Below are positions 7,626-19,150 of a stretch of 19,972 nucleotides of DNA, piece after piece; positions within the stretch are counted from its first letter, which is position 1; every line of letters starts with the position of its first letter. Source of the stretch: Eubacterium sp. GTDB lineage: Bacteria > Bacillota > Clostridia > Oscillospirales > Acutalibacteraceae. Location: assembly GCA_024696725.1 (NCBI GenBank), contig JAILGO010000157.1, positions 1-19,972 on the forward strand, in the 5' to 3' direction. The notes under the pieces were generated by a model. It was given only the letters and a program-made list of their open reading frames with translations. It did no database searches and was not told the origin of the DNA. The position numbers were made by a program, and so were the translations under genes.

Positions 7626-9695
7626 ATGAGTGAAAAAACAACAGCCTTTGAGAAGGCGGTAAAGGATTATTATGCTAATCCGAACGACTCGGTTTTATTC
7701 GAAGCGGCAAATGAGCTTTGCTCAAAAATGAAACTCGCCGAAAAGCTGCGTATGCTGAGCGGTCGGCAGTTTTTTACGCGTAACGGCTTCGACCTTATCA
7801 CGAAGAGACAGAAATATAACTGCCGTCCGTGTCTCAGCGGCGGCGTTAAGCGCCTCGGAATACCCGCGGTTGCGTTTTCCGACGGACCGAGGGGAGTAGT
7901 TATGGGTAACAGCACCTGCTTCCCCGTATCCATGTCAAGAGGCGCGTCCTTTGACGATGAGCTTGAATATGAAATCGGCTCGGCAATCGCAGACGAGGTA
8001 GCAGCTCAGGGCGGTAACTATTTCGCGGGAATATGTATTAATCTCCTTCGCAATCCCCGTTGGGGCAGAGCGCAGGAAACCTACGGCGAGGACCCGTTTT
8101 TACTCGGTAAAATGGGCGCCGCGCTTACAAGAGCCGTTCAGGATAAGGGCGTAATCGCCTGCCCGAAGCACTATGCCGTGAACAGTATTGAAAACATCCG
8201 CTTTGACGTGAACGTGCTTTCGGAAGATAAAACGCTTCACGAGGTTTATCTTCCTCATTTCAAAGCGTGTATAGACGCGGGCGCTATGTCGATTATGGGC
8301 GCATATAATCTGTTCCGCGGAGAGCATTGCTGCGAAAGCAAATATCTTTTAAAAGACGTGCTCCGCGGAGAGTGGGGATTTACGGGCTTTACGATTTCGG
8401 ACTTTTTAATGGGCGTAAGAAACGCGCCGGGGGCGCTTAAGGCGGGGCTTGATATTGAAATGCCTCAGCTTATGCACTACGCGACGCTTCCGCTCGACTT
8501 AAAGCTTAAAAGGGTAAGCGTTGAGGATATTAATAACAGCGTTGAAAGCATACTCCGCGGTCTTATTAAAATTACGCCGAGGCTTAAGTATCCTGGTAAA
8601 TCCGTTGTCGCCTGTAAAAAACATACCGAGCTTGCAAAGCGAGCCGCGCTTGAAGGCACCGTTCTTCTTAAAAACAACGGAATTCTCCCGCTCGCAGAAA
8701 GCGAAAGGGTAGCCGTTATAGGACGCTACGCCGATAAAATCAACGTCGGCGACCACGGCTCAAGCTCCGTTTTTGCGCCTTATACCGTAACGCCCTATCA
8801 GGGACTCTGTAACGCATTCGGAAAGGAAAACGTCGTACTCTGCGAGGGTACGGAATTCGTAGCTATGGAAAGCGAAATCGCAAAATGCGGCGCGGTTATC
8901 GTTTGCGTCGGAAGCGATTATAAGCAGGAGGGCGAAAACCTCGCCAACTTCTCAAAAAGCGACGAAACGACCGAAAAGGCAATGGGCGGCGACAGGTATT
9001 CGCTTCGCATACCCGAAAACGAGGTTGAGCTTATTCATAAAGCGTGCGCCGCGTTCGATAACGTAATAGTAAATATTATCGGCGGAAGCGCTTACGTTAT
9101 TGAGGAATGGAAGGACGAAGCGGGTGCAATTCTTCATTCGTTTTACAGCGGAATGGAGGGCGGCAACGCGCTCGCCGAGCTGATTTCGGGCAAGGCTAAT
9201 CCCTGCGGACACCTTCCGTTTACAATGGCGAAGAATGAGGACGATTACCCCGACTTCCTTTTCCCGAGCGCAAAAACGAGGGATATTACCTACGGCTATT
9301 ATCACGGCTACACTCTGCTTGATAAGGAGAATAAAAAAGCCGCCTATCCCTTCGGATTCGGTCTTTCATATACCGATTTTAAATACGATAATATCAGTGC
9401 GAATGACTGCGGCGAAACGGTCGAAATCTCGCTGAAGATAAAAAACACGGGAGAATACGACGGAAAAACCGTAGTTCAGGTCTATGCGGGAGCAGAGGGC
9501 GACCACCCGGTAAAGCTTCTTAAGGGCTTTAAGAAAATTTTTGTAAAAGCGGGCGAATGCTCCGAAGCTTCAGTAATAATAGATAAGAAAGATTTAATGT
9601 TCTATAACCCCGATACGAAGAAATGGTATCCCGAGGACGAATATACCTTCTTCGTCGGTCAGAACAGCGAAAATACGAAGGCAGTGAAAATATGA
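7626..9695 (+). CDS. Glycoside hydrolase family 3 beta-glycosidase, cytoplasmic
   Basis: A 689-residue retaining exo-beta-glycosidase. The N-terminal TIM-barrel shows SDGPRG (85-90), NPRWGRAQETYGEDP (143-157), KHYAVN (181-186) and the nucleophile Asp in ISDF (D259). The alpha/beta sandwich has EGTVLLKNNGILPL and the GGSAYVIEEW...SFYSGMEGG...GHLPFTM segments. A C-terminal fibronectin-III-like domain has DGKTVVQVYAG. There is no signal peptide, so it hydrolyses short imported glycosides. GH3 covers beta-glucosidase, beta-xylosidase and others, and sequence alone does not decide. The xylulokinase that follows with an ATGA overlap favours release of xylose from beta-xylosides. The family position is usually Asp-Trp after the nucleophile; here it is Asp-Phe, which may affect specificity. 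Confidence 0.93.
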   Translation: MSEKTTAFEKAVKDYYANPNDSVLFEAANELCSKMKLAEKLRMLSGRQFFTRNGFDLITKRQKYNCRPCLSGGVKRLGIPAVAFSDGPRGVVMGNSTCFPVSMSRGASFDDELEYEIGSAIADEVAAQGGNYFAGICINLLRNPRWGRAQETYGEDPFLLGKMGAALTRAVQDKGVIACPKHYAVNSIENIRFDVNVLSEDKTLHEVYLPHFKACIDAGAMSIMGAYNLFRGEHCCESKYLLKDVLRGEWGFTGFTISDFLMGVRNAPGALKAGLDIEMPQLMHYATLPLDLKLKRVSVEDINNSVESILRGLIKITPRLKYPGKSVVACKKHTELAKRAALEGTVLLKNNGILPLAESERVAVIGRYADKINVGDHGSSSVFAPYTVTPYQGLCNAFGKENVVLCEGTEFVAMESEIAKCGAVIVCVGSDYKQEGENLANFSKSDETTEKAMGGDRYSLRIPENEVELIHKACAAFDNVIVNIIGGSAYVIEEWKDEAGAILHSFYSGMEGGNALAELISGKANPCGHLPFTMAKNEDDYPDFLFPSAKTRDITYGYYHGYTLLDKENKKAAYPFGFGLSYTDFKYDNISANDCGETVEISLKIKNTGEYDGKTVVQVYAGAEGDHPVKLLKGFKKIFVKAGECSEASVIIDKKDLMFYNPDTKKWYPEDEYTFFVGQNSENTKAVKI

Positions 9696-11092
9696 ATTAC
9701 TATATCGGAATAGACCTCGGCACGTCGGCGGTTAAACTGATTTTAACCGACAAAAACGCCGAAATAATAAAAACGGTATCGAAGGAATACCCCATTTATT
9801 ATCCGAAGCCGAATTACAGCGAGCAGAACCCCGATGATTGGTGGCGAGCCGTGTGCGACGGAATAGAGGAGCTTATCGGCGGATATTCAAAAAGCGACGT
9901 AAAGGGTATCGGAGTCGGCGGTCAGATGCACGGTCTCGTAATGCTTGACGAAAACGGCTTCGTGCTTCGTAACGCGATTCTCTGGAACGATACGAGAACG
10001 GGTAAGGAAACCGATTATCTTAATAATGTTATCGGCAAAGAAAAGCTTCAGAGGCTTACGGGGAATATCGCTTTCGCAGGCTTTACCGCGCCGAAAATAC
10101 TATGGGTTAAAGAAAACGAGCCCGAGGTTTTTGAGCGGTGTAAAAAAATCTGTCTTCCGAAGGATTATATAAATTACAAGCTTACGGGCGCTTTTGCAAC
10201 CGATGTAAGCGACGCGTCGGGTACTCTGTACTTCGATGTTGAAAACAGAAAATGGTCCGGTGAGATGCTTGATATTCTCGGAATTGATATCGAAATGCTT
10301 CCGACTGTCTGCGAAAGCGGCGAGGTGATAGGAAGAACGAACCTTTCGGGACTCGACTGCGACGTCGTCGCGGGAGCGGGAGATAACGCCGCCGCGGCAA
10401 TCGGAACCCGCACCGTGAGCGAGGGACAGTGCAATATTTCTCTCGGCACGAGCGGAACTGTTTTTATCCCGACGGATAATTACGTTAAAACCGAAAATCC
10501 CGCGCTTCACTCCTTCTGTCACGCGAACGGCAAATATCACCTTATGGGCTGTATTCTCTCGGCGGCAAGCTGTAATAAGTGGCTAAACGAGGTAGTCTTT
10601 GAATCGGCGTATAACGTCGGAGCCGGCTCTGCCGACGGTATGAAGTCAGAGGTGTTCTTCCTCCCGTATCTTTCGGGCGAGCGTTGTCCTCATAATGACG
10701 GCGACGTAAAAGGCGCTTTTATCGGTATTACTCACGCGACCTCGAGAGAGAATATGCAGAGAGCTGTTTACGAGGGCGTATCGTTTGCGATAAAGGACTG
10801 TATTGAGCTTTGTCCGTTTGAAATAAAAAAAGCCACCGTATGCGGAGGCGGAACGAAAAGCCGTGAGTGGATGCAGCTTTTAGCCGATATTCTCGGCGCG
10901 GAGCTTTCCGTTATTGAAAACGAGGGACCCGCTTTCGGCGGTGCGATGCTCGCCGCGGGTAAGCTCAGTAACCCGAGGGTTGAATACACCGTTGTTCCTA
11001 ACGCGGAAATGACGGAGCAATACAGTAAAAAATATAATAGATTCAAAAAACTTTATCCTTTATTAAAGGATTTTTACAAGGAGGAAAAGTAA
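9692..11092 (+). CDS. xylB: Xylulokinase (FGGY carbohydrate kinase)
   Basis: A 466-residue ATP-dependent kinase of the FGGY family, phosphorylating D-xylulose to D-xylulose 5-phosphate for the pentose phosphate pathway. The N-terminal ATPase domain begins GIDLGTSAVK (6-15). The xylulokinase-type substrate motif GGQMHG lies at 76-81, and ILWNDTR, LPKDYI and the DVSDASGT segment follow as in E. coli XylB. The catalytic Asp is D231 in GAGDNAA, and LGTSG and LSGERCPHN are present. ATG 9692 overlaps the GH3 stop (ATGA), with GAAGG at 9677-9681. A longer in-frame start at 9623 would lie deep inside the GH3 gene and lacks support. The similarity to XylB is strong along the whole protein, but related ketose kinases (ribulo-, fuculokinase) cannot be fully excluded. 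Confidence 0.9.
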   Translation: MNYYIGIDLGTSAVKLILTDKNAEIIKTVSKEYPIYYPKPNYSEQNPDDWWRAVCDGIEELIGGYSKSDVKGIGVGGQMHGLVMLDENGFVLRNAILWNDTRTGKETDYLNNVIGKEKLQRLTGNIAFAGFTAPKILWVKENEPEVFERCKKICLPKDYINYKLTGAFATDVSDASGTLYFDVENRKWSGEMLDILGIDIEMLPTVCESGEVIGRTNLSGLDCDVVAGAGDNAAAAIGTRTVSEGQCNISLGTSGTVFIPTDNYVKTENPALHSFCHANGKYHLMGCILSAASCNKWLNEVVFESAYNVGAGSADGMKSEVFFLPYLSGERCPHNDGDVKGAFIGITHATSRENMQRAVYEGVSFAIKDCIELCPFEIKKATVCGGGTKSREWMQLLADILGAELSVIENEGPAFGGAMLAAGKLSNPRVEYTVVPNAEMTEQYSKKYNRFKKLYPLLKDFYKEEK

Positions 11093-15266: not shown

Positions 15267-16019
15267 ATGGATATTAAATCGTTTTTTGAAAAGCACGGCG
15301 AGACGGCGCTCGCCTTCTCGGGCGGAGTCGACTCCTCGGTACTGCTTGCGCTTTCGAAGAAATACGCAAAAAGAGTAAAAGCGTATTACGTAAAATCGCA
15401 GTTCCAGCCTCGGTTTGAGCTTGACGACGCGCTTGAAACGGCAGAGAAGCTCGGCGCTGAGCTTGAGGTTATTGAGCTTGACGTGCTCGGCTTTAATGAG
15501 ATTATAAATAACCCGCCCGACCGCTGTTACTACTGTAAAAAGGCAATATTCGGCGAAATACTTAAGCACGCAAAACGCGACGGCTTCGGAGTTATTATTG
15601 AAGGCACGAACGCAAGCGACGATATATCCGACCGACCCGGCTACAAGGCGCTCGGCGAGCTTGAGGTGCTTTCGCCGCTTAAGTTCTGTGGCTATACAAA
15701 AGCCGATATAAGACGTACCGCGGCGGAGTTCGGACTTTCGGTTGCGGATAAGCCGTCCTACGCCTGCCTTGCGACAAGGATTCCGACGGGGACTGTAATA
15801 ACCGACGGGCTGCTTAAAAAAACGGAAGCCGCCGAGAACGGCTTAAGAGCCCTCGGCTTTCGGAATTTCCGCGTGCGTTATAAAAACGGCGGCGCAGGGC
15901 TTGAATTCGGTAAAACGGATTTTGAGCTTTATTATAAATCGGAGGACGAGGTGCAAAACGTGCTTTCGCCCTACTATGATAAAATTACACTTGACTTAAA
16001 GGAGCGACCCGATGAATAA
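15267..16019 (+). CDS. larE: Nickel-pincer cofactor biosynthesis sulfur transferase LarE
   Basis: A 250-residue PP-loop ATP pyrophosphatase that adenylates the carboxylates of pyridinium dicarboxylate mononucleotide and replaces their oxygen with sulfur, making the dithio precursor of the nickel-pincer nucleotide (NPN). The PP-loop is SGGVDSS (18-24). The sulfur-donating Cys of L. plantarum LarE (Cys176) corresponds to C167 in KPSYACLATRIPTG. A CxxC pair at C87/C90 (RCYYC) gives three conserved cysteines, the pattern reported for LarE proteins that carry a [4Fe-4S] cluster and can turn over, rather than sacrificing the protein Cys. The start ATG 15267 follows GGTGAT (15258-15263). It overlaps larB by 8 bp. 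Confidence 0.94.
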   Translation: MDIKSFFEKHGETALAFSGGVDSSVLLALSKKYAKRVKAYYVKSQFQPRFELDDALETAEKLGAELEVIELDVLGFNEIINNPPDRCYYCKKAIFGEILKHAKRDGFGVIIEGTNASDDISDRPGYKALGELEVLSPLKFCGYTKADIRRTAAEFGLSVADKPSYACLATRIPTGTVITDGLLKKTEAAENGLRALGFRNFRVRYKNGGAGLEFGKTDFELYYKSEDEVQNVLSPYYDKITLDLKERPDE

Positions 16020-16758
16020 AGAGGAATTAACCGCTCTGCTCGAAGCGGTTGCAGATAAAAGGCTGTCCGTTGAGGACGCCGTAACGAAGCTGAAAATAAC
16101 GCCCTATGAGGATTTAGGCTTCGCTAAAATAGATACCCACCGCGGAATCCGTCAGGGCGCCGAGGAGGTAATCTACGGCGCGGGCAAGACGAGAGAGCAG
16201 ATTGAGGGCATCGTTATGCACATGCTGGAGGGCGGCTCTGAGAGCGTTCTTATTACGCGACTCAGCGAGGAATCCGCAGAGTATCTTTCAAAGAAAACAG
16301 AGCTGTTTTACGATAAGCTTTCAAAAATCGCGATGGCGGGCGAGCGCACGGCTGAAGCTGATACGGGCAATATTGTAATCGCAACGGGCGGAACGAGCGA
16401 TATTCCCGTTGCCGAGGAAGCGGCGCTTACCGCAGAATACTACGGAAGCAGGGTAACGAGACTTTACGACGTAGGAGTATCGGGGATGCACAGGCTGACC
16501 GATAACGCCGAAATTCTCGCAAAAGCTAAGGTGGTAATCGCGGTCGCGGGTATGGAGGGCGCGCTTGCGAGCGTTGTCGGCGGAATGGTCGACTGTCCCG
16601 TAATTGCCGTACCTACAAGCGTCGGCTACGGCGCGAATTTCAAGGGGCTTTCCGCGCTTCTTTCAATGCTTAATTCCTGCGCGAGCGGAGTCAGCGTCGT
16701 TAACATTGATAACGGCTTCGGCGCAGGCTATCTCGCTAATATGATAAACAAAATTTAG
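16012..16758 (+). CDS. larB: Nickel-pincer cofactor biosynthesis carboxylase/hydrolase LarB
   Basis: A 248-residue enzyme that starts NPN synthesis. It carboxylates C5 of the nicotinic acid adenine dinucleotide pyridinium ring and hydrolyses the phosphoanhydride to give P2CMN. The PurE-like C-terminal domain is clear: GGTSDIPVAEEA (126-137), LYDVGVSGMHR (151-161), AGMEGAL (179-185), TSVGYG (202-207), NSCASGV (221-227) and DNGFGAGY (233-240). C223 and E182 appear to correspond to the catalytic Cys221 and Glu180 of the L. plantarum enzyme. ATG 16012 lies inside the end of larE (8-bp overlap), with AAGGAG a few bases upstream, so the two are translationally coupled. Confidence 0.94.
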   Translation: MNKEELTALLEAVADKRLSVEDAVTKLKITPYEDLGFAKIDTHRGIRQGAEEVIYGAGKTREQIEGIVMHMLEGGSESVLITRLSEESAEYLSKKTELFYDKLSKIAMAGERTAEADTGNIVIATGGTSDIPVAEEAALTAEYYGSRVTRLYDVGVSGMHRLTDNAEILAKAKVVIAVAGMEGALASVVGGMVDCPVIAVPTSVGYGANFKGLSALLSMLNSCASGVSVVNIDNGFGAGYLANMINKI

Positions 16759-16766
16759 GTGATAAT

Positions 16767-17927
16767 ATGAATTTGTATTTTGAATGTAATACGGGTGCGG
16801 CGGGGGATATGCTCGCCTCGGTGCTCGTTTCGCTGTTCGACGATAAAGAGAAAATAACGGCGGAGCTGAATTCGCTCTCACTTCCGCATACCGTGATAAA
16901 GTACGGCGAAAAGGCGCAGAACGGGATTAACGGCGCTCACCTTGAGATAATTATTAACGGAGAAAAAGAGGAGCCCGACGGCGAACATCACTCCCATCAT
17001 CATCACCACGGAAGAAGCCTTGAAGAAATATATTCAATTATCGACTCTCTCAATGTGGGCGATAAGGTAAAAAAGGATATAAAAAGTATTTACGGTATCG
17101 TCGCAGAGGCTGAGGCTCAGGCTCACGGCGCGCCCGTCGGTGAAATCCATTTTCACGAGCTCGGAATGCTCGACGCTATTGCCGATATAACCGTAAGCGC
17201 TTATCTTATAGAAAAGCTGAATATAGGGAAAATATACGCCTCGCCGATTAACGTCGGAAACGGAACGGTAAAATGCGCTCACGGCGTGCTTCCCGTTCCC
17301 GCACCCGCAACGGCGAATATTCTCGTCGGCGTTCCCTATTATAAAAGCGATATAAATACCGAGCTCTGTACGCCTACGGGCGCTGCGGTGCTTAAGTATT
17401 TCTGTGACGGCTTTACCGAAAGCCCGAGGCTTGACTCGGTTAAAAAAATCGGTATCGGCTCAGGCACGAAGGAGCTGAAACAGGCGAATATTTTAAGAGC
17501 GTTTCTCTATGAAGAGGAAACCGTTACCGAGCTTTCGTGCAATATCGACGATATGACGGGAGAGGAAACCGCCTTCGCGACGGAAATTATAATGAAGGAG
17601 GGCGCACTCGATTGCTTTGTTACTCCCGTTTTTATGAAGAAGGGAAGACCCGCGTATCTCTTAACCGTTCTTTGCAATAATGCCGACGCGGAGAATTTCG
17701 CCGCTCTTATCTTTAAGCACACTACGACAATCGGCATAAGAAAATATGCGCCTTCGCGTTATACTCTCGAGCGCGAGCTTAAGGACGAGGGAGTTCCGAT
17801 AAAACGCTCCGAGGGCTACGGAACGGCTAAGGAAAAAATCGAATTTGAGAATATAAAAGCGCTCGCGCTTGAAAAGAACGTATCGGTCTTTGAAGCGCGA
17901 AAGGAGCTTGAAGAACAGTTAAAGTAA
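16767..17927 (+). CDS. larC: Nickel insertion protein LarC, single continuous frame
   Basis: A 386-residue CTP-dependent cyclometallase that inserts Ni into the dithio precursor to complete NPN. It starts LYFECNTGAAGDM (3-15), the typical LarC opening. A His-rich stretch with seven His at 74-81 (HHSHHHHH) probably holds nickel. The EIHFHELG motif and SCNIDDMTGE lead into the C-terminal LarC2-type nucleotide-binding part. In L. plantarum larC is split into larC1/larC2 and joined by ribosomal frameshifting; here it is one uninterrupted frame. ATG 16767 is preceded by AGGTGAT, 8 bp after the larB stop. No larA follows it. Confidence 0.93.
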   Translation: MNLYFECNTGAAGDMLASVLVSLFDDKEKITAELNSLSLPHTVIKYGEKAQNGINGAHLEIIINGEKEEPDGEHHSHHHHHGRSLEEIYSIIDSLNVGDKVKKDIKSIYGIVAEAEAQAHGAPVGEIHFHELGMLDAIADITVSAYLIEKLNIGKIYASPINVGNGTVKCAHGVLPVPAPATANILVGVPYYKSDINTELCTPTGAAVLKYFCDGFTESPRLDSVKKIGIGSGTKELKQANILRAFLYEEETVTELSCNIDDMTGEETAFATEIIMKEGALDCFVTPVFMKKGRPAYLLTVLCNNADAENFAALIFKHTTTIGIRKYAPSRYTLERELKDEGVPIKRSEGYGTAKEKIEFENIKALALEKNVSVFEARKELEEQLK

Positions 17928-17937
17928 GAGGAATAAA

Positions 17938-18852
17938 ATGGTATATACCGTAACTTTAAATCCTGCGATCGACTACGTCATAAAGACGGACGGTCTGAGC
18001 GCAGGCGTTATTAACCGCTCAAAGCACGGGAAAATCTTTTACGGCGGAAAGGGGATTAACGTTTCCGTTATTCTTTCCCGTCTCGGCGTTGAAAATAAGG
18101 CGCTCGGCTTCCTTGCAGGCTTTACGGGCAGGGAGCTTGAAAGACTGCTGACTGCCGATGGCGTCAGCTCAGAATTCATTTATCTTGAAAGCGGCTTAAC
18201 GCGAATCAACGTAAAAATCAAATCAAACGGCGAATACGATATTAACGCCGACGGACCGGAGATTAGTGAAGCGGATATCGAAAAGCTTCTTGATAAGCTC
18301 GGAGAAATTAAGGACGGCGATTATCTCGTAATCGCAGGCTCTGTTCCGAAGTCGCTCCCCGCGGATGTTTACGAAAGAATCCTTTCGCGCCTTGAAGGTC
18401 GTAATATCAGCTTCGTTATAGACGCCGAGGACGGACTGCTTAAAAGCGCGCTGAAATACAGACCGTTTCTCATTAAGCCTAATCACCTTGAGCTCGGCGC
18501 TCTTTTCGGCGTTAAGACCGAAACCGACGCGGAAATTATAAAATACGCGAAGGAACTTCAGAGCCTCGGCGCAAAAAACGTGCTCGTTTCCCGCGCTGAA
18601 AACGGAGCAATCCTGCTCGACGAAAATTCAGGCGTAACAGGAATAAAAACGGTTAAGGGAACGCTCGTTAACAGCGTGGGCTGCGGCGACAGTATGCTCG
18701 CGGGCTTTATCGCGGGATATATTAAAACTAAAAGCTATTCCGAGGCGCTGCGTCTTGCCGCCGCGTGCGGAAACGCGACGGCGTTTTCCGGGCAGCTTGC
18801 CGATAAAAACGAAATTGAAAGAATATACGGCGTCTTAAATACCGACGTTTAA
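17938..18852 (+). CDS. fruK: PfkB-family hexose-phosphate kinase, probable 1-phosphofructokinase
   Basis: A 304-residue ribokinase-fold kinase of the FruK/LacC group. It begins YTVTLNPAIDY (3-13), has the substrate motif GGKGINV (36-42), IAGSVPKSLP (132-141), LIKPNHLELG (178-187) and the ATP-binding/catalytic signature NSVGCGDSMLAGF (245-257) with catalytic base D251. The usual GAGDS reads GCGDS here. It would phosphorylate fructose 1-phosphate to the 1,6-bisphosphate; tagatose-6-phosphate kinase (LacC) is the main alternative. No fructose PTS genes are next to it, which is unusual for fruK. It lies 10 bp after larC with an AAGAGGA site, so it appears to be transcribed with the lar genes. Confidence 0.85.
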   Translation: MVYTVTLNPAIDYVIKTDGLSAGVINRSKHGKIFYGGKGINVSVILSRLGVENKALGFLAGFTGRELERLLTADGVSSEFIYLESGLTRINVKIKSNGEYDINADGPEISEADIEKLLDKLGEIKDGDYLVIAGSVPKSLPADVYERILSRLEGRNISFVIDAEDGLLKSALKYRPFLIKPNHLELGALFGVKTETDAEIIKYAKELQSLGAKNVLVSRAENGAILLDENSGVTGIKTVKGTLVNSVGCGDSMLAGFIAGYIKTKSYSEALRLAAACGNATAFSGQLADKNEIERIYGVLNTDV

Positions 18853-18869
18853 ATCGCATAAAACGACAG

Positions 18870-18891
18870 ATAATAATCCTGTGATTATTAT
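18870..18891 (+). repeat. Perfect inverted repeat overlapping the start codon of the HPr-like gene
   Basis: ATAATAATC (18870-18878) and GATTATTAT (18883-18891) are perfect 9-bp arms around CTGT. The right arm contains the first two bases of the proposed ATG (18890-18892). In RNA it would hide the start codon; in DNA it could be an operator. A competing ACAG/CTGT pairing (18866-18869 with 18879-18882) is also possible. Confidence 0.6.
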
Positions 18892-19150
18892 GGTGTCTAA
18901 AAAATTTATTATGAAAAATAAAAACGGTATGCCCGTACGTTCTGCGCAGAGTCTTGCTAACTCTATGGACCGTTTTTCGTCCGATATAAAGATAAAAACC
19001 GAGGGCAAGGAAACAAACGGTAAGAGCTTTATCGGTATTATGGCGGCGGATATTAAGTACGGACGCGGCTTTGAGGTAAGCTGTAAGGGCGCCGACGAGG
19101 AGGCTATGCTTTCGGAGGCGTGTAACATTATCGAAAGCAGCTTTAATTAA
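18890..19150 (+). CDS. HPr-like (Crh-like) PTS phosphocarrier paralogue lacking the active-site His
   Basis: An 86-residue protein that aligns without gaps over its first 50 residues to Bacillus HPr (88) and resembles Crh (85). Position 15, the His phosphorylated by PEP-dependent Enzyme I, is Pro (NGMPVRSA in place of GIHARPA), while Arg17 is kept. Position 46, the Ser phosphorylated by HPr kinase, is present in GKSFIG (44-49). It therefore cannot act in PTS sugar transport but could still be a Ser46-regulated signal, as Crh is with CcpA. I chose ATG 18890 because it gives this exact HPr register; GTG 18881 adds three residues and ATG 18911 would delete the first strand. No good ribosome binding site precedes it. 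It lies 37 bp after the fruK-like gene. Confidence 0.85.
   Translation: MVSKKFIMKNKNGMPVRSAQSLANSMDRFSSDIKIKTEGKETNGKSFIGIMAADIKYGRGFEVSCKGADEEAMLSEACNIIESSFN

Follow-up and report, generated by a model that had tools for sequence, protein, structure and literature searches.

Crh of Bacillus carries glutamine at position 15, and fructose 1,6-bisphosphate, made by the 1-phosphofructokinase FruK, stimulates HPr kinase (HprK/P). Crh is defined as an HPr without His15 in a passage of PMC3526391 that also gives a BLAST match to Crh in Thermoanaerobacterium saccharolyticum, so that proteins of the Crh type also occur outside the bacilli; a preliminary description of the DNA studied here had taken Crh as described mainly from bacilli. 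According to part of PMC13130090, unphosphorylated Crh binds and inhibits methylglyoxal synthase in Bacillus, a precedent for action independent of CcpA, and according to part of PMC2405797 few of the species surveyed in 2008 had ptsH without ptsI. The order to which our genome belongs now offers many such genomes, with HPr in 92 of 98, Enzyme I (EI) in 37 of 98 and HprK in 93 of 98. A limited sample of the literature contained no described His-less HPr from these bacteria other than Crh.

We analysed a stretch of 19,972 nucleotides (the window), which is contig 62 of a draft genome of 1.82 Mb in 195 contigs that is 93% complete. Throughout, Gnnn denotes genomes (G000 being the window's), Lnnn loci and Pnnnn database proteins.

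Results

The window encodes a full-length HPr-fold protein with proline at position 15

The HPr-2 reading frame (Table 1) encodes 86 amino acids counted from the ATG at 18890; an alternative GTG start at 18881 would lengthen the protein by three residues. Read directly from the DNA, codon 15 is CCC (Pro) and codon 46, within an NGKS motif, is AGC (Ser), Arg17 is retained and residue 18 is Ser. The protein scored 66.2 bits with the Pfam PTS-HPr profile (PF00381; E 2.7e-18, cut-off 23), 61.1 bits with NCBIfam TIGR01003 (cut-off 47.9) and 46.8 bits with NF010354 (cut-off 123), which we take to be the NCBIfam model nearest to Crh. An AlphaFold model, predicted from 39 sequences, has HPr topology with a mean pLDDT of 93.3, and in a PDB search with this model all 40 matches at E <= 0.001 belonged to HPr, Crh or NPr (TM against the query 0.64-0.93), among them Crh in the CcpA-Crh-DNA complex 1zvv (TM 0.86). 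Positions 18890-19150 encode a full-length HPr-fold protein, far beyond chance: the sequence profile and the predicted open-faced beta-sandwich are those of the HPr family, His15 for phosphotransfer from EI is replaced by Pro, and the combination of absent His15 and present Ser46 is that of Crh. The preliminary description, which had seen an HPr paralogue with Pro15, Ser18 and Ser46 in GKS, aligned to HPr without gaps through residue 50, was right on each point, and the gap-free stretch in fact goes well beyond residue 50, the alignments to solved HPr and Crh chains reaching residues 78-88 in four cases.

Table 1. Features of the window at and around the HPr gene
Feature	Coordinates	Strand	Remarks
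larE	15267..16019	+	profile match; neighbour
larB	16012..16758	+	profile match; neighbour
larC	16767..17927	+	profile match; ends 10 bp before fruK
fruK, 1-phosphofructokinase	17938..18852	+	TIGR03828 323.6 bits, cut-off 292; GCGDS motif kept
perfect 9-bp inverted repeat	18870..18891		ATAATAATC-CTGT-GATTATTAT; overlaps HPr start codon
HPr-2 type protein without active-site His	18890..19150	+	Pro15 (18932-18934), Arg17, Ser18, Ser46 (19025-19027)

The claimed neighbourhood of a fruK-like gene and lar genes is equally real: 37 bp separate the end of fruK from the start of the HPr gene, and larC, larB and larE precede fruK. The nickel pincer cofactor genes larE-larB-larC (15267-17927) lead straight into fruK; larC is a neighbour by position only and lies outside the fru operon of relatives, and no larA was seen among the part of the window's proteins that was scanned. 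The next gene begins 71 bp downstream of the HPr gene, and a remnant of fruA or of an EI gene, sought beside the HPr gene, was not found, the flanking gaps of 37 and 71 bp being too short for one.

The inverted repeat over the HPr start may be an operator or a hairpin. For this pattern, picked after being seen, 0.01 occurrences are expected in the window when as many as 3 mismatches are allowed, and it was found with 0; RNA folding of the start-codon hairpin gave z -1.6, with 12 of 200 shuffles folding equally well. Before the window's HPr start we saw no ribosome-binding-site-like stretch of the GAGG, GGAG, AGGA or GGGGG type, unlike in 35 of the 40 HPr rows compared. These motif types are likewise missing in G019, G108, G023 and G056 (G023 and G056 show GGTG), including G019, whose HPr has His15 and an adjoining EI, so that the missing site is weakened as a peculiarity of the window and alone decides nothing.

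The gene groups with the HPr of fructose operons in its genus

HPr-2 genomes were sorted by hand, matches of 36.9 bits or more being taken as HPr-2 and the rest as HPr-1. An HPr-2-class protein occurs in 41 of 80 genus genomes and EI in 43 of 80, and the two go together (EI in 38 of 41 genomes with HPr-2 vs 5 of 39 without) because both belong to the operon fruR-fruK-fruA-HPr2-EI, of which HPr-2 is the fourth gene in relatives. EI is lacking from three of the HPr-2 genomes: that of the window, G108 and G049, in the last of which the contig stops inside the HPr gene. Among the stretches read, all of fruR, fruK, fruA and EI were present at 20 genus loci, and fruK, fruA and EI accompany 29 HPr rows, several others being cut by contig ends; fruR and fruA were named from the operon pattern, their identity being in part our assumption, and fruK by TIGR03828 for the window's copy. 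The same operon order recurs among public genome records of other clostridia, of which 80 of 536 loci were kept for reading.

Sequence comparison places the window's protein in the HPr-2 class: its best match is a fru-operon HPr-2 (55% identity), it shares 27% identity with its own genome's HPr-1, and it groups with the HPr-2 proteins of its genus in trees without Crh rows, descent from crh being judged from this grouping alone. At the window's locus the fru operon is reduced to fruK and HPr-2. The genes for fruA, EI and fruR are absent from it, so that fruK alone stands beside the HPr gene, without the EI and FruA genes that accompany a fructose-PTS phosphocarrier. The functional link to fruK through fructose 1,6-bisphosphate that had been drawn earlier is, judging by the operons of related genomes in the genus, first of all one of ancestry, the window's protein being the remainder of a fru operon.

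The genus gives a step-by-step record of a sugar transport chain being dismantled. Complete fru operons form the first stage. In the second, fruK-HPr-EI occurs without fruA (L056, L060, L061, L063 and L064) and EI retains its active-site His; such a chain without a transporter is a phosphotransfer chain, perhaps a regulatory one. G108 (L112) represents the third, with fruR-fruK-HPr2 but without fruA and EI (0 EI matches), His15 being kept and Arg17 changed to Lys, and the window represents the fourth, where fruA, EI and His15 are all gone. Two HPr-EI fusions (L057 and L063) were seen among the operons without fruA; fruK was not seen beside L057.

The gene context was read for 46 HPr rows of the genus. 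EI lies in the stretch for 39, all of which have His15 (39/39), and the three rows without His15 (Pro in the window, Asn in L055, Ser in L062) have no EI in their stretches. His15 is present in each of the 4 further rows whose stretch shows no EI; contig ends cut three of these, and the remaining one is G108. A simple rule by which His15 is lost because EI is lost does not hold, given that G108 has an HPr-2 with His15 and no EI and that, among the 31 HPr loci read, none of the 14 genomes lacking EI has lost His15 from HPr-1. It is as if His15 of HPr-1 served some purpose without EI.

Other His-less HPr-2 proteins retain Ser46

Together with the window's protein, G036:C62, G030:C69, P0002, P0003, P0004 and P0010 make seven His-less HPr-2 proteins, in which position 15 is P, T, T, D, N, S or N and Ser46 is present in 7/7. 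A profile search with three His-less proteins gave 172 matches; among the best 120, which are those listed, Ser46 is present in 120/120 and His15 in 115, the five exceptions having the window's own P and T, T, N and D. Searches with the window's protein alone yielded no close relative: a whole-protein search of the protein database found only the protein itself, and a scan of genome contigs found none. G036 and G030 also retain a His15 HPr-2 with EI. In the two His-less relatives with locus DNA read, there is no EI in the locus, fruK is not adjacent and a GGGGG stretch precedes the start.

In a tree without the active-site columns (G019, G023 and G014 left out; 5 of the 120 database proteins and 2 HPr-1 added), the six other His-less proteins form one clade with support 96/85. 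The window's protein lies in the same loosely ordered set of nine rows (96/89) and is sister to the six-protein clade with 48/0 support, on a long branch that, with few columns and long branches overall, may mislead the tree. It falls just as loosely in the same part of a 40-row HPr-2 tree, from which two HPr-EI fusions (L057, L063), the truncated L058, L059 and L066 and a different HPr of G041 (L039) were excluded. A single loss of His15 would be the shortest history (1 change), and two losses are possible. The independent His-less lineage that the preliminary description had suggested, with a tree of such proteins as its check, is thus plausible as far as the six-protein clade goes, whereas the attachment of the window's protein to it is weak.

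The branch is constrained as a whole, and the presumed HprK-binding face is altered

In a two-ratio codon model using 16 of the 40 HPr-2 tree rows, the window branch had an omega of 0.03 with its branch length at the bound of 30, no different from the background of 0.14 (gain 0.6 lnL). With omega fixed on this branch, values up to 0.2 cost no more than 1.4 lnL, 0.3 loses 2.6 and 1.0 loses 9.9, giving an omega of at most about 0.25, an estimate limited by the saturation of silent sites. The model rejects neutral drift, and the window branch as a whole has been under purifying selection, but the estimate also takes in time before His15 was lost. Omega was 0.21 on the terminal branches that lead to G036:C62 and G030:C69, with 1.0 losing 14.2 lnL, and fruK next door is constrained at 0.19, omega 1 being worse by 15.8 lnL units (17 rows, one of them, G019, with an untrimmed start).

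Counted over 34 His-bearing rows (G001, G019 and G108 left out as divergent, along with three His-less rows), 9 of 32 near-invariant columns are changed in the window's protein, and 7 of the 9 changes fall in the active-site loop, the first helix or the Ser46 helix (H15P, M16V, P18S, F22L, V23A, I47F, M48I). The region of the Ser46 helix and the active-site loop is the face that HprK would bind, and since I47F and M48I are among the changed near-invariant residues, this face is altered as well.

Such changes are what one would expect of a decaying relic, in which HPr-2 became functionless after the loss of fruA and EI and is drifting to loss, its frame surviving because the loss is recent. A start codon inside a hairpin with no ribosome-binding-site-like stretch before it, and a long branch leading to a protein found in the window's genome alone, would fit the same history. 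It is countered by the rejection of omega = 1 over the branch, by the intact frame, predicted fold, Arg17 and Ser46 motif, by the persistence of other His-less HPr-2 proteins with Ser46 and by the constrained FruK next door, and the case of G019 deprives the missing ribosome-binding site of its force as proof. We would wager against decay, but regard it as a serious rival and not much less likely than a regulator.

The draft genome holds HprK and a second HPr, with no match for Enzyme I or CcpA

Besides the Pro15 gene, the genome has one other HPr gene, that of a canonical His15 HPr-1 (GLHARPA, NAKS), which sits between two ORFs that we take to be trmD and uvrC. An HPr kinase gene is present (PF07475, 236.5 bits at C143) with its Walker motif GESGAGKS intact. 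The preliminary description had named as a check a canonical ptsH and an hprK in the same genome, and with both in place the objection that there is no HPr kinase falls away. It had looked to ptsI and ccpA as well, and neither was matched in this draft: EI gave 0 matches with PF02896 and PF05524, PTS EIIC 0 with PF02378 and the LacI-type sugar-binding domain 0 with PF13377, and the LacI helix-turn-helix (PF00356), over the cut-off in 7 of 60 genus genomes, gave only a partial 20.5-bit match below it. The proposed role as a CcpA cofactor was set aside, because the draft genome yielded no CcpA with PF13377 and PF00356 and so lacks, by these families, the partner that Crh has.

Of the 14 control genomes, each of these five families matched between 7 and 14, always with B. 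subtilis among them. The HPr kinase family search matched 3 control genomes, B. subtilis not among them; B. subtilis has HprK, and a genome search of this kind can thus miss a gene. PF02896, which presumably also marks pyruvate phosphate dikinase, gave 0 in the window's genome vs 14/14 controls, either a true absence or a draft gap, so that some expected genes may be missing from the draft. In sum, neither fruA nor EI is present at the locus, the searches turned up neither of them in the rest of the draft genome, and this gut-type bacterium appears to have lost the rest of this sugar transport system.

A strict equivalent of Crh, whose P-Ser46 form would be a co-repressor of CcpA, would share the anatomy of the window's protein (no His15, Ser46), its coexistence with HprK and its likeness to the Crh of 1zvv; with no CcpA-type protein found by PF13377 and PF00356, and with a gene that sits beside fruK and groups with the HPr-2 of its genus, we consider this very improbable. 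Little credence attaches, too, to the idea that EI and a fructose EII lie on missing contigs and are served by HPr-1, leaving the Pro15 protein as a spare copy. A draft in 195 contigs, 93% complete and with 0 matches for a family found in every control, leaves room for it, but in a fru operon EI would be expected directly downstream, a place taken here by another gene that begins 71 bp on, and neither the two EI domain families nor EIIC had any match. That a sequence or binning error made Pro15 or joined foreign contigs is hardly credible, for although the protein occurs on one contig only in the protein database, it diverges along its entire length (55% identity with the best relative) rather than at one codon, and the placements of fruK and of HPr both fall inside the genus set.

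Further HPr and HprK variants occur in the order

Twelve genomes of the order outside the genus (L123-L134) encode HPr-like proteins of about 75-80 amino acids without the His15 loop and with the Ser46 region kept (DAKSIMGIFSLDL). This short family, whose listed members are mostly named 'HPr family phosphocarrier protein', has 2781 matching protein clusters; among the 120 listed, Ser46 is present in 120/120 and HxRP in 0/120. It is possibly a better candidate than the Pro15 protein for a widespread Crh-like regulator of Clostridia. Another Pro15 HPr (GLPMESA, NAKSLLG) lies at L067 (5953-6315, minus strand) in G074, from a different family of the order and with no EI match. The HPr of L191 (Soehngenia longivitae) reads GLQLRPAA with NGKS kept, its Gln15 matching that of Crh, and the other 79 of the 80 loci compared have His. 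At L118 (G041, 8433-10364), an HPr with His15 and no Ser46 (NLTKLM) stands beside an Enzyme I that appears in three ORF pieces. The C-terminal signature of HprK is PITPGRN or PVTPGRN in the genus (L113, L215-L232) and PVKPGRN in two genomes outside; PVTPGRN was dropped as a signature specific to the window because one or other of the two genus forms is present in all 18 other genus genomes read.

Discussion

The Pro15 protein cannot relay PEP phosphate through His15, because the phosphorylatable histidine is proline; no EI was found in the draft genome either. Both its predicted fold and the motif around Ser46 are preserved, the genome has an HprK gene, and the pattern of change on the protein's branch is not neutral overall. 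The best explanation, which we judge about as likely as not, is that the protein is a former fructose-PTS phosphocarrier without the His relay, whose action, should it have any, would go through Ser46 to some non-CcpA partner.

On this explanation, the HPr-2 gene would descend from the dedicated phosphocarrier of a fructose PTS operon, and its product, made together with FruK, would be a Ser46-only target of HPr kinase, with HprK phosphorylating Ser46 in a manner dependent on fructose 1,6-bisphosphate. Since FruK's product stimulates HPr kinase, the state of Ser46 would report sugar flux. We propose action independent of CcpA because no CcpA was found: the Pro15 protein would compete with HPr-1 for HPr kinase, or would bind an enzyme directly, its two Ser46 forms differing in how they bind a non-CcpA partner.

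A more specific proposal is that a His-less, Ser46-only HPr lineage was born in one clostridial genus from a fru-operon HPr and, in the window's genome, works without EI and CcpA as an HPr-kinase-controlled reader of FruK's product, its target being a metabolic enzyme or HPr kinase itself. We put it forward tentatively, as a reading that is rather unlikely to hold in all its parts. Should HPr kinase indeed phosphorylate Ser46 of the His-less forms, they would show a way for an HPr to turn into a protein of signalling alone, in this case with no CcpA to be seen. Of the Crh-like regulator originally proposed, the anatomy and setting survive, namely a His-less protein with Ser46 kept, adjoining fruK, in a clostridial genome with HprK and a His15 HPr; the part of CcpA cofactor, with no CcpA found, does not.

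Comparison with known systems

With Bacillus Crh, the window's protein has in common the absence of His15, the presence of Ser46 and an HPr kinase in the genome, which in principle makes it a target of HprK only. It differs in having no CcpA found, in lying at a different locus, in grouping with the fructose-operon HPr of its genus and in carrying Pro rather than Gln at position 15. The HPr-2 proteins of fru operons, in the same genus and in other clostridia, resemble it in sequence (up to 55% identity), in the fruK neighbour, in NGKS at Ser46 and in fold; unlike the window's Pro15 protein, with neither fruA, EI nor fruR at its locus, they keep His15 when accompanied by EI (39/39 genus rows). 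The other His-less HPr-2 proteins share HPr-2 ancestry, the loss of His15, the retained Ser46 and, in the two loci read, a locus without EI, whereas they form a clade of their own (96/85), two of their genomes (G036 and G030) also have a His15 HPr-2 with EI, and the two loci are not beside fruK. Finally, the pair of HPr-1 and HprK in EI-less genomes of the order likewise combines a Ser46-bearing HPr with HprK without EI, and differs in that HPr-1 keeps His15 in all 14.
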